64,000 bases of DNA, from assembly GCF_001623525.1 (NCBI RefSeq), contig NZ_CP015225.1:992001-1056000 (forward strand), in the 5' to 3' direction. The notes under the pieces were generated by a model. It was not told the DNA's origin, did no database searches, and saw only the letters and a list, made by a program, of their open reading frames with translations. Origin of the DNA: Pseudomonas fluorescens. GTDB taxonomy: Bacteria > Pseudomonadota > Gammaproteobacteria > Pseudomonadales > Pseudomonadaceae. Position 1 is the stretch's first letter; the number at the start of each line of letters is the position of its first letter. Positions 26,769-40,928 of the stretch are shown in pieces. The position numbers and the translations under genes are program-made.

Positions 26769-27533
26769 ATGCCCCCAATTCCTTCCAGCAAAGCCCCTAG
26801 CGTGCTCATCGTCGATGACAGCCGCAAGATCCGCGATCCGCTGGCGACGTTTCTGCGTCGCCACACGTTCGAGGTGCGCACGGCGGCGGATGCGGCGGGC
26901 ATGTGGCAGTTGCTCAAGCAGCACAGCTTTGAGGTGATCATCCTCGACGTGTCGCTGCCCGATGGCGATGGTTTCGAGTTGTGCAGTCGCCTTTATCGGC
27001 GAAGCGATACGCCGGTGATTCTGCTGACGGCGCGCGACACCTGCGCCGATCGGGTTCGCGGTCTTGATCTGGGCGCGGACGACTACGTCACCAAACCGTT
27101 CGAGCCCCGGGAACTGGTGGCGCGGATCAACAGCGTACTGCGTCGACGCCGCCCGACCGGCACGAAACAGGCCATATCGGCGTCCGACCCTGTCGCCGTG
27201 AAAATGAGTCCCTGCTACCTGTTTGCCGACTGGCGTTACGATGCCCGTCACGCCACGCTGGCGCGTGATCAAGAGCCGCCGATTCTGCTCAGCACCGTCG
27301 AAAGCAAGCTGCTGCAAGTATTTCTCAACCATCCCAACACGCTGCTGCCCCGCGAGCGCTTGATTGATTTGACCACCGCAACCGACAGAGACGTGACAGA
27401 CCGCGCCATAGACCGTCAGGTCAGTCGTCTGCGTCGCAAGTTGGCCCATAAACCGGGGGAACCGGAATTGCTGCGTACCATCTGGGGTGGCGGCTATCTG
27501 CTGGCGTCCGATGTCGTGCTGCAGGCGCCATGA
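26769..27533 (+). CDS. OmpR-family response regulator
   Basis: 254 residues. The receiver domain (about 10-125) has the acidic pair in LIVDDSRK, the phospho-acceptor aspartate in IILDVSLPDGDG, threonine in LLTARD and lysine in DYVTKPFEPRELVARI. The DNA-binding winged helix fills about 155-250 with TVESKLLQVFLNHPN and RLRRKLAHKPGEPELLRTIWGGGYLL. It overlaps the sensor kinase start by four bases (ATGA at 27530-27533). The pair is convergent with a siderophore-type receptor gene, as in the PfeR/PirR systems, so iron-siderophore signalling is a reasonable guess. Confidence 0.9.
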   Translation: MPPIPSSKAPSVLIVDDSRKIRDPLATFLRRHTFEVRTAADAAGMWQLLKQHSFEVIILDVSLPDGDGFELCSRLYRRSDTPVILLTARDTCADRVRGLDLGADDYVTKPFEPRELVARINSVLRRRRPTGTKQAISASDPVAVKMSPCYLFADWRYDARHATLARDQEPPILLSTVESKLLQVFLNHPNTLLPRERLIDLTTATDRDVTDRAIDRQVSRLRRKLAHKPGEPELLRTIWGGGYLLASDVVLQAP

Positions 27534-28912
27534 ATCGCCTGCGTGTCTTGTGGCCGCGCAAGATGGTTCATCAACTCAGTGTGCTGCTGTTGCTTGCGTT
27601 ACTCGCTTCTAATGCAATTGCCATGCTGGTTCTGCAGCGCACCGGGGCGTTGATCCATCCGCTGTCGCGGACCATGAGCCTGGAACGTCTGGTCACCGCG
27701 CACCATGCGGCTCTCGAGGCACCCAACCAGGTCGGCGCCCGGCTACTGGCGTCGATGATCACCCCGGATGCACATTTCTGGATTGATCGGCGCGCCGACG
27801 TCGAGCCCTTCGACATGCGCGCCGAAGAACAACGCCTGGCCAATGTGCTGCGCGAGCGCCTGCAACTGGCGCCAGACCTTGCCGTGGTCATGCAACTGGA
27901 GCGGGTCACCGGCGGTCATGCCCGGGACCAGGTGTTCAGCCCAGCTGGCTGGGCTCCGTTGCGTTTGCGCAGCAGCATCGAACTGCCCGACGGCCGCTAC
28001 CTCAACGCGTTGCAGCACCCGGTCGGGGCTTACGAGTGGCGCAAAGTCCTGACGTATAGCCTGCCGGTGACGATCATTCCGGTGCTGTTGATCGTCATGT
28101 TCTGCATCAGTCGCGTGGTGCAGCCTGTGAAAACCCTCGTGCAGGCGTCCGAGCGCGTCAGTCGCGGCGAGTGGATTGCCCCGCTGCCGCTGACGGGGCC
28201 GCAGGAGGCACGGGACCTGACGGCAGCGTTCAACCACATGCAGGCCAGCATCGCCCGCCATGTCGAGGGCCGCACACGCATGCTCGCCGCGATCAGCCAT
28301 GACCTCAATACGCCAATCACCGAACTGCGCCTGCAAGTGGAACTGCTGGAGGAGGGCGATGCTCGCGAGGACATGCTGGAAAGTCTCGAAGAGTTGAGTC
28401 TGATGGTGCGCGAAACCCTCAACTTCGTCCGCGAAGACGCTGTGCAGGAGCCGACGCTGACCATTTCGTTGAACGGGTTACTGGATGACCTGGCCAAACG
28501 TTACCAACTGCTGAACCAGCCTGTAACCTGGCACGGAGCGCCGCCGATCATGCTGACGTGCCGGCCCCTGGCGCTGAAACGGGCCCTGACCAACCTGATC
28601 GACAACGCCCTGCGTCATGCCGGGGATGCCACGCTGAGCCTGTGTCGCGAAGACGCTGGCACCGTCCGCCTCGACATCCTCGACCACGGTGCAGGACTTC
28701 CCGATGCCTGGTTGAGCAGGGTGTTCGAGCCGTTCGTGCAGTTCGCCGGTGGAACGGCCGATGGGCACAAGGGCGGTGTCGGCCTGGGCCTGGCCATCGC
28801 CCGCGCCTGCGTGCAGGCACACGGTGGCGAACTGCTGCTGGAAAACCGCCCGTCCGCCGGATTGTGCGCCGTGGTCAGGCTGCCGGCCGCGCTGCTTAGA
28901 AGTTCAGCGTAG
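27530..28912 (+). CDS. Sensor histidine kinase
   Basis: 460 residues. One transmembrane helix at about 14-36 and a second at about 172-194 flank a periplasmic sensor domain of about 135 residues. A HAMP-like linker follows. The phospho-acceptor is in the H-box AISHDLNTPITELRLQ (H near 260). The kinase domain has NLIDNALRHAG (N-box), LDHGAGLP (G1) and GGVGLGLAIARACVQAHGG (G2). It pairs with the overlapping OmpR regulator. Its last 17 bases overlap the convergent TonB-receptor gene. Confidence 0.9.
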   Translation: MNRLRVLWPRKMVHQLSVLLLLALLASNAIAMLVLQRTGALIHPLSRTMSLERLVTAHHAALEAPNQVGARLLASMITPDAHFWIDRRADVEPFDMRAEEQRLANVLRERLQLAPDLAVVMQLERVTGGHARDQVFSPAGWAPLRLRSSIELPDGRYLNALQHPVGAYEWRKVLTYSLPVTIIPVLLIVMFCISRVVQPVKTLVQASERVSRGEWIAPLPLTGPQEARDLTAAFNHMQASIARHVEGRTRMLAAISHDLNTPITELRLQVELLEEGDAREDMLESLEELSLMVRETLNFVREDAVQEPTLTISLNGLLDDLAKRYQLLNQPVTWHGAPPIMLTCRPLALKRALTNLIDNALRHAGDATLSLCREDAGTVRLDILDHGAGLPDAWLSRVFEPFVQFAGGTADGHKGGVGLGLAIARACVQAHGGELLLENRPSAGLCAVVRLPAALLRSSA

Positions 28913-30863
28913 CGCCCATCCACAACGTGCGACCGTAGTTCACCGTGCCGTAGGTTTCATCGTCCAGGCGCTTGTTGGTGATGTTGTTCAGCGAGCTGTT
29001 CAACGTGATCGAATCGGTGAGCTCATAAGAGCCGCCCAGATCGGCCGTGGTGTAACCCGGTGCGCTTTCATCGGTAATGGTGTTGCCGGTTTCTTCCCCG
29101 TAGTAGCTGACCGACGCCCACGCTTGCGCGCGATCATTGATCGCCCATTCGCCGCGCAGGTTGGCTTTTTGCTTGGGCGTCAGCGCCAGTGGTGCGCCGG
29201 CATTGGCGCCGCTTTTCTGTTCCGAGTCGGTGTAGGTGTAATTGGCCTTGAGCAACACACTGGCGTTGATATCCCATTGCCCGGTCAGCTCCACACCCTG
29301 GATCACGGCCTTATCGATGTTGACCCGATCCATGACGATGTAACCGTTCCAGCGCTCGTCGGTGGTGACCGTCGACAACTTGTCCTTGAAGTCGTTGTAG
29401 AACACCGTCGCGCCCGCCGACAGATCATCGCGGTTGGACCACAACGCCGAGAACTCGTAGTTGGTGCTGGTTTCCGGTTTCAGGTCGGGGTTGCCGAGCA
29501 TCACGAAACGGTTGCGTCGCAGGTAGGCGTAATCCTTGACCACCGCGCGTAATTCGGGCGCCTTGAAACCGCGGGCGATGCCGCCCTTGAGTGTCCAGTT
29601 ATCGGTGGCGCGCCACACCCCGTAAATCCGCGGGCTGGCGTGGGTGCCATATTGTTCGTGGTCGTCTAGGCGCAGGCCGGTGGTCAGTGCGAAGCTGTCG
29701 GTCACCGACCATTCGTTTTCGGCGAACACGGCTTTTTGCAGCACCGAAAACTCGTAATCGACGCGATCGCCCAGGCCCTGGTTCCAGTCGGTCAATTCGC
29801 TTTCATTCCACTGCATGCCCACGGTACTGACATTGTGCGTGGTGGGCACCACCAGTTTGGCGTCGAACACGGTGTTCTTGACCTCCGGTTTGCGCCCGTA
29901 AATATCGGTTTGCGCCGGCGTGGCCTTGCCTTCGCGGCTGGAGGTTTCCTGGGACAAGGCGATATCCGACGTGGCCCAACCCCAACGGCCCTGGTGCGAC
30001 AGCGACCAGTGATCGCGATTGTTCTCCTGCTCGCGGGTGGCCCAATTGGCACTGATGCTGTCGCCGTTCTTCAAGCGCGTGGCGCCAGCCTCCAGCAGGA
30101 TGTCGTGGTCGACGGTCGGGGTGAAGGCCAGGCGTGCGGTCAGGTCGCGGTGATCGGCCTGGCTGAAACCGTTGGTTTGCTCGATGTCGTCATCGGCCTG
30201 ACGATCCAGGTAACGGCCCCAGACCTGCAAGCCGAGAAAATCTTCGTGCAACGGACCATTGAGGTAGAACTGCGTCTGACGGGCGTTGCCTTGATCGCTG
30301 TGCTGCCGCGCCGAATAGTCGTAGGACACCGAACCGCCCCACTGTGGCGAAACCTTGCGGGTTATCACGTTGATCACCCCGCCAATGGCGTCCGAACCGT
30401 ACAGCGACGACATCGGCCCACGCACCACTTCGATACGCTCGATGGCCGCCGCCGGCGGCACGAAACTCTGCTCGTAACCGCTGTTACCGTTGACCCGCGA
30501 TTCCCGGGCACTCTGGCGCTTGCCATCGACCAGAATCAGCGTGTAATCGGCTGGCATGCCGCGAATGGAAATGTCCGTCTCATTGGCCCCACCGTTGACC
30601 GTCACCCCCTCCACATCCCGCACCGCGTCGCCCAGATCGCGATACGACTTGCGGCGCAGCGTCTCCCCATCAATCACCGTGACAGAGGCCGGCGCATCCT
30701 CGACGCGTTGCTCGTAGCCGGAAGCGGTCACCACCACATCATCCAGGGTCAAGGCCTGCGGTTCAGCGGCTTGGGCGGAAGTGAATAGCGTGCCGGCTGC
30801 GCTGGCGGCCAGGGCGAAACGTGTCCACGGGGACAATGCTGGAAAACGAAGAGGGGAGTGCAT
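28896..30863 (-). CDS. TonB-dependent siderophore/colicin receptor (CirA/PirA-like)
   Basis: 655-residue outer-membrane receptor. A signal peptide ends near TSAQAAEP. The TonB box region is LDDVVVTASGYEQRVEDAPA. The plug (about 45-165) contains DISIRGMPADYTLILVDGKR and IEVVRGPMSSLYGSDAIGG. The barrel ends NYGRTLWMGATLNF with terminal phenylalanine. This layout matches ferric catecholate receptors such as CirA and PirA. ATG 30863 has AAAGGA six bases ahead, whereas the longer start at 30884 does not. A Fur-like box is upstream, and the adjoining two-component system is the probable regulator. Confidence 0.9.
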   Translation of the reverse strand: MHSPLRFPALSPWTRFALAASAAGTLFTSAQAAEPQALTLDDVVVTASGYEQRVEDAPASVTVIDGETLRRKSYRDLGDAVRDVEGVTVNGGANETDISIRGMPADYTLILVDGKRQSARESRVNGNSGYEQSFVPPAAAIERIEVVRGPMSSLYGSDAIGGVINVITRKVSPQWGGSVSYDYSARQHSDQGNARQTQFYLNGPLHEDFLGLQVWGRYLDRQADDDIEQTNGFSQADHRDLTARLAFTPTVDHDILLEAGATRLKNGDSISANWATREQENNRDHWSLSHQGRWGWATSDIALSQETSSREGKATPAQTDIYGRKPEVKNTVFDAKLVVPTTHNVSTVGMQWNESELTDWNQGLGDRVDYEFSVLQKAVFAENEWSVTDSFALTTGLRLDDHEQYGTHASPRIYGVWRATDNWTLKGGIARGFKAPELRAVVKDYAYLRRNRFVMLGNPDLKPETSTNYEFSALWSNRDDLSAGATVFYNDFKDKLSTVTTDERWNGYIVMDRVNIDKAVIQGVELTGQWDINASVLLKANYTYTDSEQKSGANAGAPLALTPKQKANLRGEWAINDRAQAWASVSYYGEETGNTITDESAPGYTTADLGGSYELTDSITLNSSLNNITNKRLDDETYGTVNYGRTLWMGATLNF

Positions 30864-30891
30864 GGGGTGTCCTTTACAATTCAACTTAAAA

Positions 30892-31062: not shown

Positions 31063-32352
31063 TCAGTACCTCTCGATCATGTCGGCCGCCTGTTGGGTGG
31101 CCTGGCTGGTCCGGGTGGCCAGCTTGCGGACTTCGTCGGCGACGACTGCGAAGCCCCTTCCGGCCTCACCGGCTCTGGCCGCTTCTATGGCTGCGTTCAG
31201 TGCCAGTAGATTGGTCTGTTTGGCAATGCTTTGGATGGCGGCGACGATTTGCGTCAGCTGAGCGAGGTTTTCCTGCATCGCTTGATGCTGACGTTCCTGA
31301 GTCTGGCGCAACTGGCTTTCCTCGCGGAAGGAGTGCACGTCTGTGATCGCCCCCACTGTACGCAAGGGCGTGCCGTCGATGCTTCGCTGGGTCTGACCCC
31401 GGCCTCTGAACCAACGGTACTCGTCGTTGCGGTGCCTGAGGCGGTAGGTCACATCGAAGGGTGTTCGGCCGGAGCGGTCGGCGACATGGTCGACAAACGC
31501 TTGCACGGCACGCTGGCTGTCTTCGGGATGCAGGCGGGACAACCAGCTTTCGAACACATTGGGAAACTCTTCGATGGTTTCGTAGCCGAGCAGGCGACGC
31601 ATCTGTGACGAGAACCAGATGACGTTGTGCGGATTGGCTGGATCGCCTGCGATGATATTGATGTCCCAGAGTGCGTCTTGAATGCATTCGCGGGAAATCT
31701 CGAAGCGGGCTGAGAGCATCGCGAACTCTTCGTCTTGCAAGCGTTGTCTGTGGATGTCACGCAGCATCCCGACGCTGATCTGTGGCAGCCCCCGTTCGTC
31801 ACGGAGCGTTTCGCCGACGATCTGGACCCAGCGGTATTCTCCCAAGTGGCTCGCGAGGCGCACCTCCACCTGGTAGGGCGCGTGCCCGCTGCGATCGGCA
31901 AGATGACGAGCCAGGGCATCCAGGTTGACCTGGCGGTCGTCAGGGTGCAGGCAATCGTTCCAGGGGCCTAGATAGAAGGGGAGGTCCGCCTGAGTGGGCA
32001 GGTTGCCGAACCATTGCAGTACTGCATCGCGGGCGGGCTGCAGGCTGCCATTGAGCTGCAATTTCCAGAGCAAATCACCCGACCTGCTGGCCAGCAATTG
32101 CCAAAGTTGTGCTTGATCGTGCAACTGCGTTCCGTACTCACCCAGCTGAAGCTTGAGGCGTTGCAGTTCAGCATCAAGGTCGACCACGCTGGCCCTGAGC
32201 GCCGTGCGATCGGCGAGCAGGCGTTCGATGCCGGCCAGTACTGGTCGCAGTGACGAATCCTTCGCCGCTATCGATACTCCTTCGCCGTCGGGTTGTTCCA
32301 GTCGTTCGCCGAGCAGCTTCAATTCCTTGCGGGTGCTATTTCTGAAGAACAT
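31063..32352 (-). CDS. Soluble PAS-PAS methyl-accepting chemotaxis protein
   Basis: 429 residues with no transmembrane helix. Two PAS domains are visible: about 85-195 ([12 protein letters not shown] ... [20 protein letters not shown]) and about 215-330 ([18 protein letters not shown] ... [20 protein letters not shown]), each with a PAC-type tail ([40 protein letters not shown]). The signalling hairpin [20 protein letters not shown] and [18 protein letters not shown] follows, and the protein ends soon after it, lacking the usual C-terminal half of the MCP coiled coil. The start at 32352 has AGAGGT upstream. It lies just after the nitrile hydratase operon on the same strand and may steer the cell toward, or along, that metabolism. 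Confidence 0.85.
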
Positions 32353-32405
32353 CAAATACCTCTGGTTTTGCTCACGAGGTTTCGGGGTGGTTCTGGTTCT
32401 TGATG

Positions 32406-32437
32406 CCCCGAGCATTCCGGTCTTCGAATGCTCGGGG
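32406..32437 (-). terminator. Strong hairpin between cobalt permease and chemoreceptor genes
   Basis: CCCCGAGCATTC (32406-32417) pairs perfectly with GAATGCTCGGGG (32426-32437), loop of eight. No T run follows on the minus strand, so it may attenuate rather than fully end the nitrile hydratase operon. Confidence 0.5.
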
Positions 32438-32467
32438 ACTGTCTGACCTGGACTGGAGTCTGTCGAC

Positions 32468-33145
32468 TCAGGCGGCCTGGTACAGGCGGCGCTCGATCAG
32501 CGCGCTGCCACGCAGGCGATGTGTTGCCTTGGCACCGGCCAGCACGGCCAGGTCCAACAGCGGTTCGAGGGTGACGACGGTCATGTAGGCACTGCCGAAG
32601 GTCAGAATTGACAGGGCGTTTCCTGCGGTGAAGCCTTGTCCGTAGAAGGCCCAGAAGGCAACCCAGGCGACGATGCCGGCCTGGAAGGCGGTCGACAGCC
32701 CCAGCGCTTGTCTATAGTTCAGTTCCACATACGGCGTGTTTGGCGCGATGATGCGTTTCGCCAGGGCAGCGACTGCGAACAGCGGTACCAAAAGGGTGGT
32801 GACGTTCATGCCGTATTGCGGCAGGTCGAATGGCGCGAAGAACAGACTCTGGATCAGCAGTCCCAGGGCCAGGCCCGCTGCCGCAGGTGCGGCGCCGAGC
32901 AGCAGAAACAGCGTTGACCCCAGGATGAGATGGACCTCGGAGACGCCGACTGGATGGTGCGGTAGTAGCTCGAAGAAGCTGAATACCAGGGCCGTGGCAG
33001 TGACAGTGCGAGCCAGCAGCGAGAAGACACCACGCTCGCCCATGGCTTGGGCAGCGAGTTTGAGGGTGTAGGCGCCGGCACCTGCGGCAGTGACATAGCT
33101 CAGCCAGAGTTTTCCAGCTTCCACCAGGTTAGGTTCGATATGCAT
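32468..33145 (-). CDS. CbiM-type cobalt permease linked to nitrile hydratase
   Basis: 225-residue membrane protein with about six hydrophobic helices. It begins [17 protein letters not shown] and contains [20 protein letters not shown] and [20 protein letters not shown], the pattern of CbiM/NikM energy-coupling-factor permeases whose N-terminal histidine binds metal. No CbiN, CbiQ or ATPase gene is present in the window, so it would work alone or with components encoded elsewhere. It follows the nitrile hydratase activator by 60 bases. Since the hydratase has the cobalt-type metal motif, supply of Co2+ for its active site is the most natural role. NhlF plays the analogous part in Rhodococcus, though it is of another family. 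Confidence 0.8.
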
Positions 33146-33205
33146 GACGATTGCCCCTTGGCCGCTACGCGACCTCGAAAGTAAAAAAACAGGATGACTC
33201 CGGGC

Positions 33206-33646
33206 TCAGCTGGTGGCCCGGCTGATCGCCACCGGCTCGTGCCGCGGCAGGTGTTCGTGGCCTTTTCCATGGGCCGGTGGGCAACTCGCATTGAGCAGCG
33301 TCACCGGTTGTCCGTGGGGGGTATTCAAGTAAGCCTGCTGCCATTCCTCGGTGCGCCGGCTGATATCTTCCATACCCGTTAAACCGAGTGTGGTGACCAC
33401 TCTTTCCATCGCTGCGATCCATTGCCGGTAGTAAGTGTCGTTGACGCTTTCTCCGGGTTGCGCCGGGGCAGCCTTGATCTCTTCGCTGAATACCTGCACC
33501 CAGTCCTTCCAGGGGAACACGCCGGCTTGGTGCAAGTGCACCAGCAGGGAAAAAGCCTGAGCCTGCCAAGGCTTGTCGAACACCGGGCCTTCATCGTCGA
33601 GAGGGAGGCCGACGGCCTTGTAGTCGTGGTGCATGCTCGTGTTCAT
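33206..33646 (-). CDS. Nitrile hydratase activator / accessory protein (P14K type)
   Basis: 146 residues from ATG 33646, which overlaps the beta-subunit stop by four bases (ATGA). The sequence EGPVFDKPWQAQAFSLLVHL and FPWKDWVQVFSEEIKAA shows the relationship to the N-terminal part of the beta subunit, as in the known small chaperones of cobalt-type hydratases. A C-terminal tail with CPPAHGKGHEHLPRHEP is rich in histidine and has one cysteine, suiting cobalt handling. In characterised systems this protein delivers cobalt and promotes oxidation of the metal-ligand cysteines of the alpha subunit. A longer reading from 33709 lies inside the beta gene and was rejected. Confidence 0.87.
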   Translation of the reverse strand: MNTSMHHDYKAVGLPLDDEGPVFDKPWQAQAFSLLVHLHQAGVFPWKDWVQVFSEEIKAAPAQPGESVNDTYYRQWIAAMERVVTTLGLTGMEDISRRTEEWQQAYLNTPHGQPVTLLNASCPPAHGKGHEHLPRHEPVAISRATS

Positions 33647-34296
33647 ACGGCCTCCAGGTAGCTGTCCCATAGGTCGATGCACACACTGTCCGGTCGCGCC
33701 ACTCCCCACAGTTCTGTCGCACTGAAGCGAACGGCATAGACCTGTTGGGGCTGTTCGCCTAGACCGTGGGCCATCGTGTCTGGGGTGGCAAACGCGCCGT
33801 GTGCAATCTCGATGGTCCCGACCTTGCCGCGCGCGTAGCGCGGCAGTCGGGTGTGGGTGGTTGGGTTGAGGTTCTTCGTTCGCACCCGGTCACCGACCTG
33901 GAAGCGGCCGGAGACAGGTTCCTTTGCCCGGGAAGAGGCGCCGCCGAGCACTACGGCCTCGACGATGTCCGGTGTTAAAACCGTGACGGGCTGTGTCGGT
34001 GGGGTTGGTTTGGCCGTACCCTGCAGTTCGCCAGTGCTGATCACGCCTTTTTCCAGCAGCAGGTTCTCGAAGGCATGCAGCCAATGTTCGTAGTAACTGG
34101 ACTGCAAGTATTCAGCCGGTTCCATGCGTTCAATGGCGTGTCGGAATTCGTCGACATTGAAGTGCCCGCCGACGAAGAGCGAGGCGAACAGCGGAAAGAC
34201 CCTGCGCTCCCAGTCGTGATGGAAGAGGGGTTCATTTTCTTCGGTGAGCACCGGGCCGAAACCGTGCATACCGCCTAAATCGTGTACACCGTTCAT
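33643..34296 (-). CDS. nthB: Nitrile hydratase beta subunit
   Basis: 217 residues. The N-terminus MNGVHDLGGMHGFGPV is the hallmark of the beta subunit. The middle has HAIERMEPAEYLQSSYYEHW, and the C-terminal SH3-like barrel has RFQVGDRVRTKN, RLPRYARGKVGTIE and VYAVRFSATELWG, ending VCIDLWDSYLE. Beta forms the heterodimer with alpha and contributes arginines that contact the modified cysteines. The gene is 19 bases downstream of alpha and overlaps the activator gene, giving the usual alpha-beta-activator order of Pseudomonas cobalt enzymes. Confidence 0.93.
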   Translation of the reverse strand: MNGVHDLGGMHGFGPVLTEENEPLFHHDWERRVFPLFASLFVGGHFNVDEFRHAIERMEPAEYLQSSYYEHWLHAFENLLLEKGVISTGELQGTAKPTPPTQPVTVLTPDIVEAVVLGGASSRAKEPVSGRFQVGDRVRTKNLNPTTHTRLPRYARGKVGTIEIAHGAFATPDTMAHGLGEQPQQVYAVRFSATELWGVARPDSVCIDLWDSYLEAV

Positions 34297-34315
34297 GGTT
34301 TTCTCCTTTTCAGGT

Positions 34316-34948
34316 TCAGGCTTCGTCGCCCGGCATCTTCGGCAGGCCAGTGCCGATCATGGCGTCACGCGTCACCAGCTCGACCAGTCGTTCCTCGCTC
34401 CAGCCGTCAGTACCGACCGGACGTTCCGGCAGTACCAGGTAGCGCAACTCGGCACTGCTGTCCCAGACGCGTACTTCCTTGTCATTGGGAATAGTCAAAC
34501 CGAATTCGGCCAGCACGCTGCGCGGATCGATGACGATCCGTGACCGATAGGGCGCGGATTTGTACCAGACGGGTGGCAGACCCAGGGTCGGCCAGGGGTA
34601 GCAGGAGCACAGCGTGCAGACCGTCACGTTGTGCACGGTCGCGGTGTTCTCCACCACCACCATGTCTTCGCCCTGCACGCCGGAAAAACCCAGTTCGGCA
34701 ATGGCCGCGGTGGCATCTTCCAGCAGCCGATGTTTGTAATCGGGATCGAACCAGGCCTTGGCGACCACCTGAGCGCCGTTGCGCGGGCCGACCTTGTGTT
34801 GGTAAGTGTCCACCAGAGCATCCATCGCGGTTGGGTCGACCAAACCCTTTTCGATCAACAGGGATTCGAGCGCCTTGACACGCAAGGCGATGGCCTCGGG
34901 TGGCTCGGTGTGATCGTGATCGTGATGATGTTCGTGCGTATGGCTCAT
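34316..34948 (-). CDS. nthA: Nitrile hydratase alpha subunit, cobalt type
   Basis: 210 residues. The metal site is [10 protein letters not shown] near residues 109-118; C-T-L-C-S-C is the cobalt form, whereas iron enzymes have C-S-L-C-S-C. The flanking [20 protein letters not shown] and [19 protein letters not shown] are typical. The N-terminus carries a histidine cluster, [11 protein letters not shown], which could bind cobalt before insertion; this is an inference. The enzyme hydrates nitriles to amides in the cytoplasm, taking the product of the aldoxime dehydratase and feeding the amidase encoded 76 bases upstream. Confidence 0.94.
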
Positions 34949-35024
34949 GTCTTAGCTCCTCTGAAGTTGATACTCACTTTCAGTGCTACTTGCCGGTGTT
35001 CGTTCGCCAATGCGATGCGCAGGT

Positions 35025-36539
35025 CTACAACGTCCGCCAATCGACAGAGGCCTCGAATGCGGCTGCCGCTTGATAGAGGGTGCCTTCGGCATAATGTCTT
35101 CCGACAAGCATCAGCCCCACGGGCAGTCCGTCCACCAGGCCACACGGGATCGACATGGCGGGGTGCCCCGTAATGTCTTGAGCGGCCGTATTGCCAAGCA
35201 TCTCCAACGCACGCGTGACGGTCTCGGTGATTGAAGAACCCGGTTCCGGGAGCGGCTGAGCGGTGATTGGCACTGTCGGCATGACGAGCAGGTCATAGGT
35301 GTCCAGCGCCTTGTCATAGGCCGCTCGGGCAAAGCGCGCAATGTTCTGGGCCTTGGCGTAGTAGCGACCGTTGTAGCGCTCCAGACCGAACTGGCCGACG
35401 AACATGCAAAGCTTGAGTGACGGCGACAATGCGTTTGCCTGATCGCGCCAACCGGCCTGTTTGTCCAGCAGGCCCACGTCGTACAGCCCCTTCCAGTTAA
35501 AACCCGCGCCATTGCCGTGCATCATTTGCATGGTCAGGCCTTCACAGCCGATAGGGCTCCATAACGATCCCGCCAGGTTGTGTTCGGGAACCGATACCTC
35601 CTCGACCCGCGCGCCCAAAGCTTCGAGCCGGGCGATAGCGCTGCGTACCTTTTCTGCGATACGTGGATCTTGATTCGCGAGTTGGAAGCCTTCCTGGAGA
35701 ACCCCGATCCGAAGTCCGGTCACGCCTCGTTCCAGATAATCGCAATAGGCATCGACCTTGGGGGCGGCCTGGCGAGGGTCGAGCCCATCGGCGCCGGCCA
35801 TCACTTCGAGCATGAGCGCGTTATCGCGTACGTTGCTCGTCATGGGGCCGACATGATCGAAAGTGGACTCGATCGCCATGACCCCGGTGTAAGGCACTAG
35901 ACCCCAGGTAGGTTTCATTCCATAAATGCCGCACCATGCGGCAGGAATGCGGATGGAACCGCCTTGGTCGCCACCGATAGCCAGGTCGACCGCCCCCGTC
36001 GCCACAAGCGCCGCGCTGCCCGAAGACGAACCACCCGTCGTATAACCATGGCGAAAAGGGTTGTGCACAGGCGCGGGGTCCGAGGTATGGCTACCACCGG
36101 AGAGGCAGTAATGTTCGCAGGTGGCTTTGCCGAGGATGGTTGCACCAGCGTCGAGCAGACGCGTCACCACGGTGGCGTCAAACGAAGGTACGAAACCCTC
36201 CAGTGGTGCGGCGCCGTTCATCATCGGGACACCGGCCAGAGAGATATTGTCCTTGAGCGCGACCGTCTTGCCAGAAAGCTTGCCCGAACTGGCGCCCATC
36301 ACCTCAGTTCTGTAGTACCAGGCGTTCAGCGGATTATCCGTGCTTGAAGGGCGGTAACCAGCACTGCGCTCGTAGCGCACTGGAGGGATGAAATCTGGCA
36401 ACTCATCGACCAAGTCGTAGGCATCGAAACTGGATTGCATAAGCGCCAGGTATTCGCTGGCTTGCTCGGGTGTCAGCTGTATGTGCAGGCGGCTGGCGAG
36501 ATCCTGCACGTGTTCGAGAGTCGGGCGGATGATGGCCAT
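35025..36539 (-). CDS. Amidase (amidase-signature family) of the nitrile pathway
   Basis: 504 residues. The Ser-cisSer-Lys triad is visible: lysine in [11 protein letters not shown], the glycine-serine stretch [16 protein letters not shown] with the cis-serine, and the nucleophile in [16 protein letters not shown]. The C-terminal [20 protein letters not shown] is conserved in nitrile-cluster amidases. It converts the amide formed by nitrile hydratase to the carboxylic acid. ATG 36539 has AAAGGA six bases ahead; the frame extends upstream to 36563 without a ribosome site. It is the first gene of the amidase-alpha-beta-activator-CbiM operon, with an AraC-type repeat site at 36681-36720 upstream. 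Confidence 0.92.
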
Positions 36540-36680
36540 GGGGTGTCCTTTGTCCTGTGCCAACCCGTAGGGGCTGGCGATGTCTGTTCAAACGTCATCT
36601 CGGGGATGCCCGGGCACGGTGCGCACTCTTGGCGAGCCGTGCTCGGGGCTGGTATCAAGCTATCTCCACAGATTGAGCAG

Positions 36681-36720
36681 CGCTTGGCTGAGGAGGACAG
36701 TCGCTTGGTTGAGCGGGACT
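36681..36720 (+). promoter_or_regulatory. Tandem operator of the AraC-type regulator (amidase/NHase promoter)
   Basis: Two direct copies, CGCTTGGCTGAGGAGGACA (36681-36699) and CGCTTGGTTGAGCGGGACT (36702-36720), are spaced exactly 21 bases start to start, two DNA turns. The same arrangement recurs at 39698-39737, and one half-site at 37367. Direct repeats on one helix face are how AraC-family dimers bind. It lies 142 bases upstream of the amidase start. Confidence 0.75.
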
Positions 36721-36777
36721 CGCTTGCCCCACCACGGTCGCCCTCCATTGCTGTGGCTTAGGCTTATGCCGGGGGTA

Positions 36778-37302
36778 TCAGTCTTCGGATTCAGGCGTGG
36801 TCTGTTTCCGAGATGACTTCCCGGGTTTTGGCCAGACAACCCCAACGCTTCTCATCCCTTTGGCGGGGTCCATTTCCGGGTGTGCGAGTACGACGTCCCG
36901 ATAGGAGGGGCTCCCGATCACCGCCGGTTTGAACTTGATGAGGAAGTCATTGACCTCTTTGCGCAGATCCGGGGCCAGACCGTAGTCGTCGTAGCACGCC
37001 TCGAGACAATCGAGCACCGCTTGCCAGTGCACCTCGGTCAGGCCCATTCCGCGATGCGCGGTGACCATGTCTCTACCCCGGTATTTGGCGCTTCCACCCC
37101 AGTGCTCGGAAAGGAAATCGACAAAATTGATGTGTTCCTTTTGGAACGTCGATTCCGACATATGGGCCCAGATGTGCCCGATGGCGGGGTGTCCCATTGT
37201 CTTTCTCAATACTGCGCCTGCGAACTGATAGATCGCGTCATAGCCGCCAAGACGGGTATAGAGGGAGGGTTGTTGTTCCATGGTGGGTTGCTGGTCGGTC
37301 AT
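36778..37302 (-). CDS. Truncated hemoglobin (trHb) of the aldoxime-nitrile cluster
   Basis: 174 residues. The trHb core covers about 12-130: SLYTRLGGYDAIYQFAGAV, the HIWAHMSESTFQKEH helix B/E region, HWGGSAKYRGRDM, and AHRGMGLTEVHWQAVLDCLE, where the last histidine is the proximal heme ligand. About 45 extra residues at the C-terminus (from FKPAVIGSPSY) are lysine- and proline-rich. Truncated hemoglobins bind O2 or NO. Its placement between the aldoxime dehydratase/channel genes and the amidase operon, with its own half-site of the cluster operator upstream, suggests a dedicated role, perhaps keeping the ferrous heme of the dehydratase active or removing NO. That role is inference. Confidence 0.85.
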   Translation of the reverse strand: MTDQQPTMEQQPSLYTRLGGYDAIYQFAGAVLRKTMGHPAIGHIWAHMSESTFQKEHINFVDFLSEHWGGSAKYRGRDMVTAHRGMGLTEVHWQAVLDCLEACYDDYGLAPDLRKEVNDFLIKFKPAVIGSPSYRDVVLAHPEMDPAKGMRSVGVVWPKPGKSSRKQTTPESED

Positions 37303-37366
37303 TGTCTGGTTACTCCGTTTCGGGTGAGAGGCATCTCATTAGCCAACTGTCGCGCCGTTGGGCACA

Positions 37367-37385
37367 CGCTTGGTTGATAAGGACA
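37367..37385 (+). promoter_or_regulatory. Half-site of the AraC-type operator upstream of the hemoglobin gene
   Basis: CGCTTGGTTGATAAGGACA matches the better half-site of the other two operators (CGCTTGGTTGA-N3-GGACA). The expected partner 21 bases upstream (37346-37364) is only weakly conserved. It lies 65 bases before the hemoglobin start. Confidence 0.65.
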
Positions 37386-37408
37386 ACGGGTGGTAGAGAC
37401 GGGGGGGT

Positions 37409-38275
37409 CTAAAAAACCCTGACGTAGCGCAGGTTCATGCGAAAGTCTTCTTTGGGACCGTTCTCCACCGCTAGGTCGCGTCCAAGTTGCACTTGGAGTT
37501 GGTCCTTGGCAGTGAAAAACTTTCTGGCCGTGACGCGGAAGTTGGTGGTTTCCATCCTGTCGTCCTGGTTGACACCATCGATCTGGTTTTCCCCGCCCCA
37601 ACTGTGGCCGAAGCCGATAGCCAGCGCCGTGGTCTCGTCGGGCATGTAGCGCCCCATTAACTGAGCACCGTAGGAAACGTCCTGCTCCCGGCGGGCGGAG
37701 CTGGCGCCGAAGTCGTTGTTGTCTGCGTACCAGATGGCGTCACCGACGAGGTCGATGGCCCACTTCTGCGTGAAGTGCTTGACGTAAGCGGCCTGGAGAT
37801 CAACCTTCCAACGGTTCTCGCCAAGGTTGAGCGCGTCGTCTTTGTCATAGTCGCCAGTCGGCACGTACAAGTAGGCGGTCGCACCGAGGGTGTCGTTGGC
37901 GTCGTTGAGGCGGTACTTGAGCGGCGCAGTGAGAATGAGGTCGCCGATGCCGCTGGCGTCGCCTAAAGCAGAAGCGTCACCACCGCCTGAGACATGACCG
38001 AAGGGCAACAGGAATTGCGGCTCGATGGTCAGTCGCTCGCTCAACTGGTAGATGTGCAGCAGACGCAGAATGCCGATATCGGAAGTCAGGTTGAAATCGG
38101 AGCTGGTCTTGTGGCCCTGGGCATAGGCACTGTCCGTGGTGGCGTGCTGGTAGTAGACCACGCCGATGGTCGCTCCCACGGGGAGCGGCTCGTAATCGCC
38201 AGGATCCACCTCGAGCGCGTGGGAGGAAAGGCTGGGGAGGAGGGCGGCAAGCGACAGGTAGCGGAACTGTTTCAT
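37409..38275 (-). CDS. Outer-membrane channel-like protein (MetA/SphA type)
   Basis: 288 residues with a signal peptide of about 20 residues (LAALLPSLSSHALEVDPGDY). The mature protein shows alternating strands such as VGATIGVVYYQHATTDS, LTIEPQFLLPFGHVSGG, DLILTAPLKYRLND and TAYLYVPTGDY, the pattern of the phenol-degradation MetA-like outer-membrane family, ending with an aromatic residue in NLRYVRVF. Relatives occur in operons for hydrophobic or aromatic compounds and are thought to admit them. Within this cluster it would pass aldoximes or nitriles. ATG 38275 follows AAGGAT. A terminator separates it from oxdA, so it may depend partly on read-through. Confidence 0.8.
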   Translation of the reverse strand: MKQFRYLSLAALLPSLSSHALEVDPGDYEPLPVGATIGVVYYQHATTDSAYAQGHKTSSDFNLTSDIGILRLLHIYQLSERLTIEPQFLLPFGHVSGGGDASALGDASGIGDLILTAPLKYRLNDANDTLGATAYLYVPTGDYDKDDALNLGENRWKVDLQAAYVKHFTQKWAIDLVGDAIWYADNNDFGASSARREQDVSYGAQLMGRYMPDETTALAIGFGHSWGGENQIDGVNQDDRMETTNFRVTARKFFTAKDQLQVQLGRDLAVENGPKEDFRMNLRYVRVF

Positions 38276-38299
38276 GATCGAAGATCCTTTTTTCGGGCA

Positions 38300-38340
38300 A
38301 AAAGAGCCCCGCAATCGCCAGTCAGGCAATGCGCAGGGCT
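38300..38340 (-). terminator. Intrinsic terminator after the aldoxime dehydratase gene
   Basis: On the minus strand AGCCC-T-GC ... GC-GGGGCT folds across about 15 bases (38305-38309 with 38336-38340 as outer arms) and is followed by CTTTTT. It lies 23 bases after the oxdA stop. Confidence 0.6.
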
Positions 38341-38362
38341 AAAAGTGGAGTCAGCGATGAAG

Positions 38363-39418
38363 TCAGGTGGGCGACACTTGCGCGTCGCGCATCATCCCGG
38401 TCTGCGGGTGGCAGTTGATGTACTCGAACAGTTGCTGGCTACCGTCCGCTACCGAGACCTCGTGATACAGCCGCAGCTTCGAAAGGCCTCCGATCACTCG
38501 GAAGAACGTGGTGAAAATACGTAAATGAGTGGGGTGGGATTCTGCCCAGCGTTCCAGTTTGTCGAGGGATCGCCAGTGACCGATGTCATAGGCGATGTCG
38601 AGAAGATTGCCATCCAGGTCGACGTTGCGAACGAAGCGGTTGCTGTAGCAGCCCAGGGCCTGCCCCTCGTCACGCAGGAAGTTCATGCCGTCTTGCAGGG
38701 GCGGCAGCATCTCGTTGAAATAGAGCGCGCGCTCTTCCTCGCCGGCTTCGACCCAGTCTTGTCCGGAGCGGATCAGCGTCAGGTTGTCGTGGCCGCGCAC
38801 CACGACCCTGCCGCCCTTGGCGGGGTCGCCTGAAATGACTTGCAGTTCGCTGGTCGGCTGCATCCAGTCGGTCTGTGAGATAGCAAAGCGGTCGCGCGCC
38901 GAGCCCCAGTAGCCGTGCTCCTCGATCTCGCCGCTGATGCCGTCCATGATCGCACCGACACCTGGCAAATCGTCCTTGAATGCATACAGCGTCTCGAACT
39001 GCTCGGCACGTGGTGCGATGACTTCGCGGAAATACCCCAACCCTTCGTTCAGGCGTGCCTCGTCGCCCCACCAATCGGCCACAGGCGCTGAAAGTAACCA
39101 TCGCTGATAGGCAGCAGGATCACGCCAGTAACCCACGGCGATGAAGTTTCCATAACCCTGATTGTCGAGGTGGTAGGTCAGGTCGTGATTCCCTGGGCCA
39201 TCGGCGAGGGCAAAGCTGGCGTCAATGTAGCGCATGGCCTGCAGGGCGGCGACGCGTTGCTCGTCGCGAAATTGCACCCCGAGGTAAGCCATCACGACTT
39301 GCTTCACACTTTCGTCAGCTCGCCCGACAAACATCGGGAAGGGTGGCTGGTAATCGTCGTGAACACGACGGGACAACGTCCGGGGACATTTGAGATGTTT
39401 ATCGATTGCAGATTCCAT
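38363..39418 (-). CDS. oxdA: Aldoxime dehydratase, heme-containing (OxdA)
   Basis: 351 residues, the size of Pseudomonas aldoxime dehydratases. The N-terminus MESAIDKHLKCPRTLSRRV and the C-terminus EYINCHPQTGMMRDA nearly reproduce the P. chlororaphis enzyme as I remember it. Residues that act around the heme are present: arginine in YWGSARDRF, serine in TLIRSGQDW, the proximal histidine in ESHPTHLRIF and the second histidine in RLYHEVSV. The enzyme removes water from aldoximes to form nitriles with a ferrous b-type heme, in the cytoplasm. It heads the pathway completed by the nitrile hydratase and amidase encoded downstream on the same strand. Confidence 0.95.
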   Translation of the reverse strand: MESAIDKHLKCPRTLSRRVHDDYQPPFPMFVGRADESVKQVVMAYLGVQFRDEQRVAALQAMRYIDASFALADGPGNHDLTYHLDNQGYGNFIAVGYWRDPAAYQRWLLSAPVADWWGDEARLNEGLGYFREVIAPRAEQFETLYAFKDDLPGVGAIMDGISGEIEEHGYWGSARDRFAISQTDWMQPTSELQVISGDPAKGGRVVVRGHDNLTLIRSGQDWVEAGEEERALYFNEMLPPLQDGMNFLRDEGQALGCYSNRFVRNVDLDGNLLDIAYDIGHWRSLDKLERWAESHPTHLRIFTTFFRVIGGLSKLRLYHEVSVADGSQQLFEYINCHPQTGMMRDAQVSPT

Positions 39419-39460
39419 GGGGGCTCCTTTATCACCGTCTCAAACGGACGGTTCGCTGTT

Positions 39461-39628
39461 CTACATCCCAGTGGATGTGGGGGTTTTGCGGTGGGTACCA
39501 CTCCATCGGCGTTGCAGCGCCAAGGTCCCGAGCTGTACCAGGTAAGTGGCAAACTCTTCGGGTGCCATGTCCCATCGCTGTAAAAACCAGGATGAATCGG
39601 ACAGTCGCTGCTGTTCTTGTGGATGCAT
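39461..39628 (-). CDS. Small protein upstream of oxdA, possibly frameshifted
   Basis: 55 codons from an ATG preceded by GAGGTG. The reading MHPQEQQRLSDSSWFLQRWD and MAPEEFATYLVQLGTLALQRR looks like real coding sequence. After that the same frame ends in a low-complexity THRKTPTSTGM, while another minus-strand frame, ending at 39432, continues sensibly as MEWYPPQNPHIHWDVEQRTV. A single-base shift near 39500 would join them into a protein of about 64 residues ending 13 bases before oxdA. Either the gene is intact but odd, or it is broken by a frameshift. Its function is unknown; position suggests co-expression with oxdA. Confidence 0.4.
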   Translation of the reverse strand: MHPQEQQRLSDSSWFLQRWDMAPEEFATYLVQLGTLALQRRWSGTHRKTPTSTGM

Positions 39629-39992
39629 CAGACACCTCATCATTGGTGCTTGTAGGGACACGGCATGGATTAAAAATTATCGAGGGGCGATGAAACGTGC
39701 TTGGCTCGAATGGACAACCGTTTGGTTAAAAAGGACAGGCAAAAAGGCCGGCATAACAGCGCGCAGCAATGGTGCGGGGCTTGTGAATCAAGGGGGCGAG
39801 GTGCCCCGAGAAGAGGCATGGGGAGAGGCATGGGGAGTGTTGGAAGGATCGGCCTATGTAACGCGCAGGCGGCTATCTTCCAAGGTGTCTGACAGCGCGG
39901 GAATGAGGCGATGGAGATGGCCTGCTAATTGCTTTGCCCGCAAAAACGTTACCCCGCTTTTTTTGTTGAAACGCCGCCGCGAGGTGAATGCA
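39629..39992. other. Divergent promoter region between oxdA side and AraC gene
   Basis: About 360 bases upstream of both the oxdA transcript and the AraC-type regulator. It contains the tandem operator at 39698-39737. Beyond that no gene is supported; an in-frame extension of the regulator through here lacks a ribosome site and resembles nothing. Confidence 0.5.
39698..39737 (+). promoter_or_regulatory. Tandem operator of the AraC-type regulator (oxdA promoter)
   Basis: TGCTTGGCTCGAATGGACA (39698-39716) and CGTTTGGTTAAAAAGGACA (39719-39737) repeat with a 21-base period, matching the amidase operator. It lies 70 bases before the small ORF and 280 bases before oxdA, and 256 bases before the regulator gene. 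Confidence 0.75.
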
Positions 39993-40928
39993 ATGAGCCA
40001 GACATGTCAGTATTCAACGCTTGCCGTTACGGCACCCCTCCGGTTTGATTACTGGAAGGAGGTGGTGTGTCACCATTGCCTGGACGCAGACAGCAAACGA
40101 CTGGCGCAGAGCGATTTTGACGGGGCGCTGGAGGTGCATGGCATGGGCGCATTGGACATCTGCACGTTGTCCGCCCCCTTGCACTATTGGGAGCGATCCG
40201 CCCAGCACCTGCGCAGTGATCCTAATGACGATTTGTGGTTGGGCTTTACCCGGAGCGGTTATGGCGAACTGGAGCAGGCTGACCGACGGACGAAGCTGGC
40301 GGCGGACGATCTGTTTCTTTATGACGCATCCCAGCCGTTCAGATTCAGCTTCGGTGGTACTGATAACCACCTTGTCCGCATTCCGCGACAACTGCTCAGC
40401 CAGCGGCTGCCCGGCATAGCGGATTGCACCGCTGTGGTTCTGGATGACCGTCGTCCAGGGGTGATTCCGTTACGCGAGATGTTACGCCAAGCCGCGAGTA
40501 TGCCTTCAGGCTTCCAGAACACAGGAGTCTCCAGCCGTTACTCCAGCACGTTGCTTGACCTTCTGGTGGTCAGCCTGGAACTCCAGGATTTAAAGCAGAC
40601 GCATGATGAGTTGGACCTGTACGGCCGGATCATGAATTACATCCACCGGTATTTGACCGAGGCGGACCTGTCGCTCGAACGCATTGCTCAAGCCCACCAT
40701 GTCTCCACGCGCACTGTGACGCGCGCTTTCGCCCGTCATCAGAAATCGCCGGTCGCAGAAATCTGGAAGGCACGATTGCTTGCCAGCCGCGACGCTATTG
40801 AGCGCGGTCAAGTCCGCAGTATTTCTCAGGCGGCGCTGGATTTCGGTTTCTCCGACTTCTCTCATTTCAGCCACGCTTTTCGCAAAGCCTTTGGCGTTGC
40901 CCCCCATACTCTCCTGCGACGAGAGTGA
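39993..40928 (+). CDS. AraC family regulator of the aldoxime-nitrile cluster (OxdR-like)
   Basis: 311 residues. The N-terminal half fits the AraC-binding-like domain (PF14525 type): FDYWKEVVCHHCLDAD, then WLGFTRSGYGELEQADRRTK and LAADDLFLYDASQPFRFSF. The C-terminal AraC/XylS DNA-binding domain has two helix-turn-helix units, LSLERIAQAHHVSTRTVTRA and ISQAALDFGFSDFSHFSHAF, ending RKAFGVAPHTLLRRE. ATG 39993 follows GAGGTG. Regulators of this type activate aldoxime/nitrile operons in other bacteria. The 21-bp-period repeats upstream of oxdA and amidase, all pointing the same way, are its probable binding sites. Confidence 0.88.
   Translation: MSQTCQYSTLAVTAPLRFDYWKEVVCHHCLDADSKRLAQSDFDGALEVHGMGALDICTLSAPLHYWERSAQHLRSDPNDDLWLGFTRSGYGELEQADRRTKLAADDLFLYDASQPFRFSFGGTDNHLVRIPRQLLSQRLPGIADCTAVVLDDRRPGVIPLREMLRQAASMPSGFQNTGVSSRYSSTLLDLLVVSLELQDLKQTHDELDLYGRIMNYIHRYLTEADLSLERIAQAHHVSTRTVTRAFARHQKSPVAEIWKARLLASRDAIERGQVRSISQAALDFGFSDFSHFSHAFRKAFGVAPHTLLRRE

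Follow-up and report, generated by a model that had tools for sequence, protein, structure and literature searches.

Why would an aldoxime-degrading operon of a pseudomonad use a cobalt-type nitrile hydratase, and where would its metal come from? The question is raised by a stretch of 64,000 nucleotides of Pseudomonas fluorescens (contig NZ_CP015225.1, positions 992,001 to 1,056,000), here called the window, which comes from a 6.92 Mb single-contig genome. At positions 31063 to 40928 it holds genes for an aldoxime dehydratase (Oxd), a nitrile hydratase (NHase), an amidase, and a CbiM-type permease. A sequence-only reading of the window had named ten genes here. Translation and family profile scans found all ten in place and bear out its view of one module with a complete aldoxime-nitrile-amide pathway, a cobalt-type hydratase (by motif and nearest solved relative), and an importer gene. 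At a probability of roughly 0.8, we interpret the cluster as an inducible catabolic aldoxime operon set of recombinant origin, with a cobalt cassette, AraC control, and a dedicated CbiM. Its features are listed below; two tandem operators, an operator half-site, and a conserved small open reading frame (ORF) were absent from the earlier list.

31063–32415, minus strand: methyl-accepting chemotaxis protein (MCP)-like gene, soluble, PAS-PAS plus half an MCP signalling hairpin (PF08447 twice; PF00015 profile positions 15–96 of 172)
32468–33145, minus strand: solitary CbiM-type permease, probable cobalt importer (PF01891, 53.4 bits, cut-off 23.1; NikM2/CbiM fold)
33206–33646, minus strand: P14K-type activator (TIGR03889, 101.9 bits, cut-off 46, scanned over 33206–33616)
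33643–34296, minus strand: nitrile hydratase beta (TIGR03888, 276 bits, cut-off 152)
34316–34948, minus strand: nitrile hydratase alpha with CTLCSCY, the cobalt motif (PF02979, TIGR01323; 3qxe, 369 bits)
35025–36539, minus strand: amidase of the amidase-signature family (PRK07235, 844 bits, cut-off 545; PF01425)
36684–36719, plus strand: predicted tandem operator 5' of the amidase gene (one of two perfect genome matches)
36778–37302, minus strand: group 1-like truncated hemoglobin with a conserved C-terminal extension (PF01152)
37370–37384, plus strand: predicted operator half-site 5' of the globin gene (exact TTGGTT-N5-GGAC)
37409–38275, minus strand: outer-membrane channel-like protein of the Phenol_MetA_deg family, probable substrate channel (PF13557, 123.8 bits)
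38363–39418, minus strand: aliphatic aldoxime dehydratase OxdA (NF050090, 650.5 bits, cut-off 600; 3w08, 630.8 bits)
39461–39628, minus strand: unannotated conserved small ORF of 55 amino acids between operator and oxd (28 of 29 copies open)
39701–39736, plus strand: predicted tandem operator TTGGNT-N5-GGAC with a 21-bp period in the AraC-oxd gap (one of two perfect genome matches)
39993–40928, plus strand: AraC-family regulator, divergent from the operon (PF14525, AraC_binding_2; PF12833, HTH_18)

The start codons of the activator, amidase, channel, and AraC genes were picked among in-frame candidates, and the preferred activator start overlaps the beta stop. The minus-strand order is oxd-channel-globin-amidase-alpha-beta-activator-CbiM-MCP, with AraC divergent, a placement that repeats in relatives. 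Gaps from amidase through MCP are 76, 19, 5, 60, and 52 bp (from the scanned, not the preferred, activator start); wider gaps precede the amidase (238 bp), globin (106 bp), and channel (87 bp) genes. The AraC protein is FeaR-like, yet scores under the FeaR model's cut-off. OxdA exceeds the NF050090 equivalog cut-off and, aligned with 3w08, keeps R178, S219, H299, and H320 of B23 OxdA, which we take to be its catalytic and heme residues.

The metal type of the hydratase can be read from several features. Its alpha subunit, of which the genome search found no second copy, has the translated motif C-T-L-C-S-C-Y. The nearest solved chain is 3qxe (369 bits), labelled "Co-type" and presumably the P. 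putida enzyme, followed at 218 bits by 1ahj, which we take to be an iron-type hydratase. In a published survey, CTLCSCY counts as the cobalt motif and CSLCSCT as the iron motif (PMC2667541). A small beta-like activator (P14K/NhlE type, TIGR03889) is present in place of a CobW-type GTPase. By motif and nearest solved relative, the hydratase is of the cobalt type. That it loads iron in this host in spite of its motif is highly improbable: metal exchange in such enzymes has been forced experimentally, with very low activity (PMC7193024), and the cobalt motif, the Co-type nearest relative, the Co-type activator, and a slot free of CobW-type GTPase all speak against it.

The metal would be brought in by the permease. 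Its predicted model (predicted local distance difference test score 83.5) best matches the folds of 4m58, which we take to be NikM2, and of CbiM 5x3x_M. Residues M1, H2, and H72 are invariant in 24 relatives and presumably fit the metal site of the CbiM family. The protein thus has the CbiM fold and N-terminal Met-His of a CbiM/NikM substrate-binding (S) component of energy-coupling factor (ECF) transporters. CbiQ had no match in the genome by a search that was positive in 10 of 14 control genomes, and CbiN had none by a weaker test, positive in only 2 of 14; the genome search therefore turned up neither partner of a CbiMNQO transporter. Judged from sequence, the permease is a solitary CbiM S component. 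A second CbiM-family gene (C1:5921422) was considered as a partner and rejected, with an ORF start that is not MHI and neighbours that look housekeeping-like by eye.

Relatives of this permease occur in vitamin B12 settings in other bacteria. We found the CbiM subfamily in 33 of 398 Pseudomonas-genus genomes (7 hydratase-linked, 25 strong others, and 1 weak). Of the 25 strong others, 20 were fetched, and 20 of 20 carry a cobalamin riboswitch upstream of CbiM at a distance of about 100 bp or less. In a separate alignment of the subfamily, rows without hydratase are 63–77% identical to the window CbiM. The riboswitch test on 15 of 66 non-hydratase loci, picked for shortness from the best 80 of 544 CbiM loci in named genomes, found a riboswitch in 13, in 11 of them within 300 bp upstream of CbiM, and none in two (L094 and L142; L numbers are our locus labels). 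In the window, neither a cobalamin riboswitch nor any other Rfam RNA reaches gathering scores, and no cobalamin riboswitch was found in the hydratase-linked loci L031, L032, L088, L091, L092, L122, and L123 or in eight plasmid loci. The CbiM tree sets a gammaproteobacterial hydratase-linked group (support 99; 16 rows plus L105) apart from a Pseudomonas B12 group (99). A single origin of all hydratase-CbiM links is not rejected (p = 0.27), so we make no claim of independent recruitment in Chelativorans and Sinorhizobium. Elsewhere in the window's genome, a CbtA gene (G000:C1:2455365-2456021) sits in a locus with two oppositely oriented cobalamin riboswitches (L198).

The slot after the activator was compared in 11 plasmid stretches. 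In six it holds CbtB-CbtA-histidine phosphatase (two Pantoea, Rahnella, Agrobacterium vitis, Klebsiella michiganensis, and Acinetobacter; the clusters of the last two show no Oxd), and in three it holds CbiM (Rhizobium, K. pneumoniae, and Citrobacter). The alpha motif is CTLCSCY in all nine importer-bearing clusters; of the other two stretches, that of A. tumefaciens ends within alpha, and that of Burkholderia is unannotated, with an iron motif. Because an unrelated cobalt importer has been swapped into the same slot, we regard this comparison as the best evidence for permease function. Insertion sequences lie near the cobalt-type clusters of the Klebsiella, Acinetobacter, and Citrobacter plasmids (L199, L208, L201, and L209). 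According to a review, co-expressed PsCbiM raised hydratase activity 2–4 fold, so the CbiM-hydratase link is already in print (PMC13243292).

Together, these observations strongly suggest that the permease supplies cobalt to the hydratase. It could instead be a bystander that happens to sit in the operon, or a nickel/cobalt importer of general use that serves B12 or other needs, as its relatives' B12 settings and its scores under the NCBIfam CbiM cut-offs might indicate. We consider this improbable, given that any CbiM in a cobalt cluster directly follows the activator, that the 16 hydratase-linked CbiM and one relic form one group (99), that an unrelated importer takes this slot on six plasmids, that the genome has a riboswitch-linked CbtA and no riboswitch at the window cluster, and that a co-expression effect is reported (PMC13243292).

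We then asked how common the arrangement is. NHase alpha occurs in 48 of the 398 genus genomes (47 above the cut-off), and the 51 stretches fetched (up to 20 kb) cover 52 of 55 alpha matches, the remainder being the window's own and two weak ones. Their motifs are iron in 31, cobalt (CTLCSCY/W) in 14, CTLCSCT in 5, and unreadable in 1. All 31 iron clusters have Oxd and amidase and none has CbiM; globin is found in 4 and MCP in at least 19. Four of the 14 cobalt loci (L031-L034) match the window from AraC to CbiM, two of them with MCP, which brings the full cobalt version to five clusters with the window included, compared with 31 for the iron version. The set is thus not the one-off that it had seemed from the window alone. 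Oxd stands beside a CTLCSCY hydratase in six clusters (the window and five others), where, as had been expected, CbiM (5/6), globin (5/6), and MCP (4/6) are not rare beside the rest; the sixth, L036, has Oxd, MCP, and activator, and neither CbiM nor globin was seen in it. Globin and MCP had also been taken as marks of the cobalt form; since iron-type clusters carry them too, they belong to the shared chassis. The cobalt cluster is a minority variant, at 5 or 6 clusters per 398 genomes, of a commoner iron-type operon with the same chassis of AraC, Oxd, channel, sometimes globin, and amidase.

Several other loci surround this pattern. Five (L044 and L046-L049) have the alpha motif CTLCSCT, intermediate between the cobalt and iron forms, and fall on the iron side of the alpha tree; four of them are ordered channel-Oxd-alpha-beta-amidase and have no operator half-sites. 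A CbiM-led scan of named genomes found hydratase alpha in 14 of the best 80 of 544 CbiM loci, with a cobalt motif in 13 and a split one in L093; carriers include Vreelandella, Halotalea, Brenneria, and P. oryzihabitans, and the set gives no CbiM frequency because its loci were selected by CbiM. In Brenneria sp., CbiM and a half-MCP lie beside what by eye is an apparent type I secretion adhesin locus (L105, 10001–12023); this locus, which lacks hydratase, is probably a cluster remnant. In the window, a TonB-dependent receptor and a divergent two-component system adjoin the cluster (26769–30866). We rejected this flank as part of the module because only L031 among the 51 fetched loci shares it. 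Close copies of the flanking TonB receptor and major facilitator superfamily genes occur in 5 and 2 of 38 genomes, respectively (own genome included; E ≤ 1e-150).

Cobalt clusters that lack Oxd raise the question of what the module is for. Two of them, L037 and L038, have globin-alpha-beta-activator-CbiM and keep the small ORF and operator half-site; each shares its genome with an iron cluster (L069 in G279 and L067 in G282, respectively). The seven remaining cobalt loci have neither Oxd nor CbiM, so that 9 of 15 cobalt-motif loci, window included, have no adjacent Oxd. Along with the Oxd-less plasmid clusters, these loci would fit a module that mainly handles nitriles, perhaps in plant contact, and in which Oxd is a minor part. 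We think this unlikely: Oxd is intact in the window, with its presumed catalytic residues, and is present in 31 of 31 iron-type clusters. The authors of the UW4 study likewise propose a route through the dehydratase (PMC3596284).

The iron and cobalt versions differ in their middle section, which is alpha-beta-CobW-type GTPase in the former and alpha-beta-activator-CbiM in the latter. The GTPase directly follows beta in 5 of 6 iron loci inspected (none by a simple rule in L050), and the three of five that were scanned are all of the cobW family (PF02492, PF07683), with ZigA as the nearest NCBIfam model, under its cut-off. Gene trees of these clusters conflict. Among the 50 rows of the amidase tree, the window belongs to a group of seven that lies inside the iron-type rows, adjoining three of them (99), and a single cobalt clade is rejected (p = 8.7e-5). 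It is also rejected by the channel tree (p = 1.5e-5 with two distant rows and 0.007 without them) and the MCP tree (p = 6e-4). The Oxd tree groups 14 of 15 cobalt rows (83) and does not reject a single clade (p = 0.36), and the NHase alpha tree puts iron on one side (97) and allows it (p = 0.65); the globin tree (14 rows) is uninformative (support 61). Focused tests, whose p values flatter the result because their groups were named after the first trees had been seen, place the window amidase and the whole set of iron rows on the same side of the tree (100) and reject its union with the other cobalt rows (p = 0.00019). For Oxd they reject window plus iron and accept window plus other cobalt (p = 0.45), and for AraC they accept window plus iron (0.61) and do not reject window plus cobalt (0.064).

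The operon is thus a mosaic: the window amidase nests with iron clusters, and Oxd and hydratase nest with cobalt ones. In view of these conflicting trees, the operon looks recombinant. A cobalt operon inherited as one unit, with the mosaic as a tree artefact or a trace of old paralogy, would be compatible with the Oxd, NHase, and AraC trees (p = 0.36, 0.65, and 0.064) and with the quick tree building; it is distinctly unlikely, as one cobalt clade is rejected by amidase and by the channel even without the distant rows, and the window amidase groups with Pseudomonas iron-type rows at 99.

Both versions appear to have control sites of the same kind. Five copies of the pattern TTGGNT-N5-GGAC lie in the window, each in a gap of the cluster: as tandem pairs spaced 21 bp at 36684/36705 and 39701/39722, and singly at 37370. 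The chance of the pair pattern in the window is 0.05. Over the whole genome (6.92 Mb) it matches perfectly at just two places, both in the cluster; with up to two mismatches, it has 5 genome matches vs 2 for a reversed control. Across 49 related clusters (974,813 bases), the half-site is found in 42, with 91 sites, of which 90 are in intergenic gaps, none is in a gene, and one is outside; the last precedes Oxd in L036, a locus in which no AraC gene turned up close by. Two control patterns have 7 sites each in the same clusters, none in gaps. The AraC protein most likely binds the predicted tandem boxes.

Three further products of the cluster are less familiar. The globin is a group 1-like protein of truncated fold, whose proximal His is invariant and whose C-terminal extension is conserved. 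In one pairwise alignment, Leu stands at its distal B10 position, which in group 1 truncated hemoglobins is presumably Tyr. All 11 occurrences in the 398 genus genomes (E ≤ 1e-30) lie within nitrile clusters. This confinement is new as far as we searched: we found no literature link between truncated hemoglobin and nitrile hydratase, the matches being off-topic by title and the start of the abstract. As a guess, the globin may protect the ferrous heme of Oxd or scavenge nitric oxide. The small ORF before oxd has 29 copies if the window is counted; 28 are open, ATG is in place in all, and variation is greatest at third codon positions (5857 vs 4158 and 3244). It has no Pfam or NCBIfam match in the three copies scanned, and 12 database proteins match it; it occurs in iron- and cobalt-type clusters and is interrupted by stops in L087. 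As far as searched, with no literature search made for operators or small ORF, this conserved ORF is new, as is a tandem operator before two transcription units with a half-site before a third. The MCP-like gene had been read as a soluble PAS chemoreceptor. The PAS and MCPsignal domains and the lack of a transmembrane segment (hydropathy) agree with this; the signalling hairpin is only half there (PF00015 profile 15–96 of 172). All 23 readable relatives of 26 end within about 30 residues of the hairpin tip. Ordinary chemotaxis is doubtful because the second hairpin half is missing in the protein and these 23 relatives.

We propose that the cluster works as follows. The outer-membrane channel would admit an aldoxime, which OxdA (ferrous heme) would dehydrate to a nitrile; the cobalt-type hydratase would convert the nitrile to an amide, and the amidase would split the amide into acid and ammonia. 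AraC would bind the tandem boxes, spaced 21 bp, ahead of the small ORF-oxd and amidase genes, plus the globin half-site, and activate two or three promoters, that of the amidase probably driving amidase-alpha-beta-activator-CbiM-MCP. CbiM would bring in Co2+, which the activator would insert through subunit swapping. As CbiM lies in the nitrile operon, the importer would be controlled by nitrile instead of B12 through a riboswitch. The Pseudomonas operon would then exist in two metal versions, with the window copy combining an iron-type chassis and cobalt-lineage Oxd and hydratase genes, presumably in that direction of exchange.

Several results weigh against this account. The CTLCSCY motif correlates with cobalt and does not prove it. 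CbiN, which together with CbiM is the described minimum for cobalt transport (PMC7689651), was not found in the genome. A PDB sequence search with CbiM, single or profile, returned nothing at E ≤ 1; the best Foldseek E value was only 1.3e-3, and the protein falls under the cut-offs of all three NCBIfam CbiM models that it touched. Nickel or dual transport is possible because the permease is distant from solved CbiM. The third predicted operator (globin, 37370–37384) is a half-site with no good partner at 21 bp, and the half-site is missing in 7 of the 49 clusters (the four CTLCSCT clusters tested, L051, L079, and L122). The trees are quick ones, with support from the Shimodaira-Hasegawa-like approximate likelihood-ratio test only. 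A single cobalt clade is not rejected by AraC (p = 0.064), the cobalt row L036 lands among iron rows in the Oxd tree, and the channel rejects both focused groupings (window plus iron, 0.017; window plus cobalt, 0.007).

A wider reading is tentative, and we hold it at somewhat less than even odds. The chassis would be metal-exchangeable, with one regulator and operator set over an iron or a cobalt cassette, each with its own metallochaperone. The importer would have been recruited from B12 metabolism and freed of its riboswitch, and cobalt uptake would need no more than the CbiM S component, with no CbiN, no CbiQ, and no ECF module of its own. The globin confined to these clusters and the 55-amino-acid protein would serve the aldoxime or hydratase steps as dedicated partners. 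With operators of one kind and either an iron or a cobalt version, such homologous operons open metal choice in a metalloenzyme pathway to direct testing, and recombinants such as the window copy allow cassette, chaperone, and importer to be compared in one host. The cluster also offers a natural example in which a solitary CbiM probably supplies a cobalt enzyme outside B12 metabolism, which is useful for amide biocatalysis, and it draws attention to a globin subfamily and a small protein in nitrile clusters.

Known systems share parts of this design. Jiang 2022 and 2023 are reportedly the sources for PsNHase-PsCbiM of Pseudomonas stutzeri CGMCC 22915. Like the window, this system pairs a cobalt hydratase with a CbiM importer whose co-expression raises activity; the likeness is one of description, and the review passage does not state the Oxd, globin, and regulator context (PMC13243292). 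In Rhodococcus rhodochrous, the cobalt importer NhlF also adjoins a cobalt hydratase (PMC7689651). NhlF is a NiCoT permease, of a family unrelated to the window's CbiM. We know of no oxd at that locus. The B12-linked solitary CbiM of Alphaproteobacteria and Pseudomonas belong to the window's subfamily (63–77% identity) and stand mostly behind a cobalamin riboswitch (13/15 and 20/20), whereas the window CbiM lies in a nitrile operon without one. P. putida NRRL-18668 (5B) has the same alpha-beta-P14K order and a Co-type sequence, and its P14K loads cobalt via subunit swapping; the accessible source text mentions neither Oxd nor importer, both of which the window has (PMC3511329). In Rhodococcus YH3-3, the cobalt hydratase is located outside the oxd cluster (PMC4888990). 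The oxd-clustered hydratases covered by a review are iron-type, which agrees with the earlier statement that the well-known P. chlororaphis-type cluster has an iron-type enzyme (PMC8955678). P. chlororaphis B23 and Pseudomonas sp. K-9 cluster oxd, amidase, and hydratase alpha-beta as the window does (PMC8955678), and the 31 iron-type clusters found here repeat the chassis order. B23 OxdA (3w08) aligns end to end with the window OxdA. The hydratase of B23 and K-9 is iron-type with a P47K activator (PMC8955678), whereas the window has a cobalt motif, a P14K-type activator, and CbiM.

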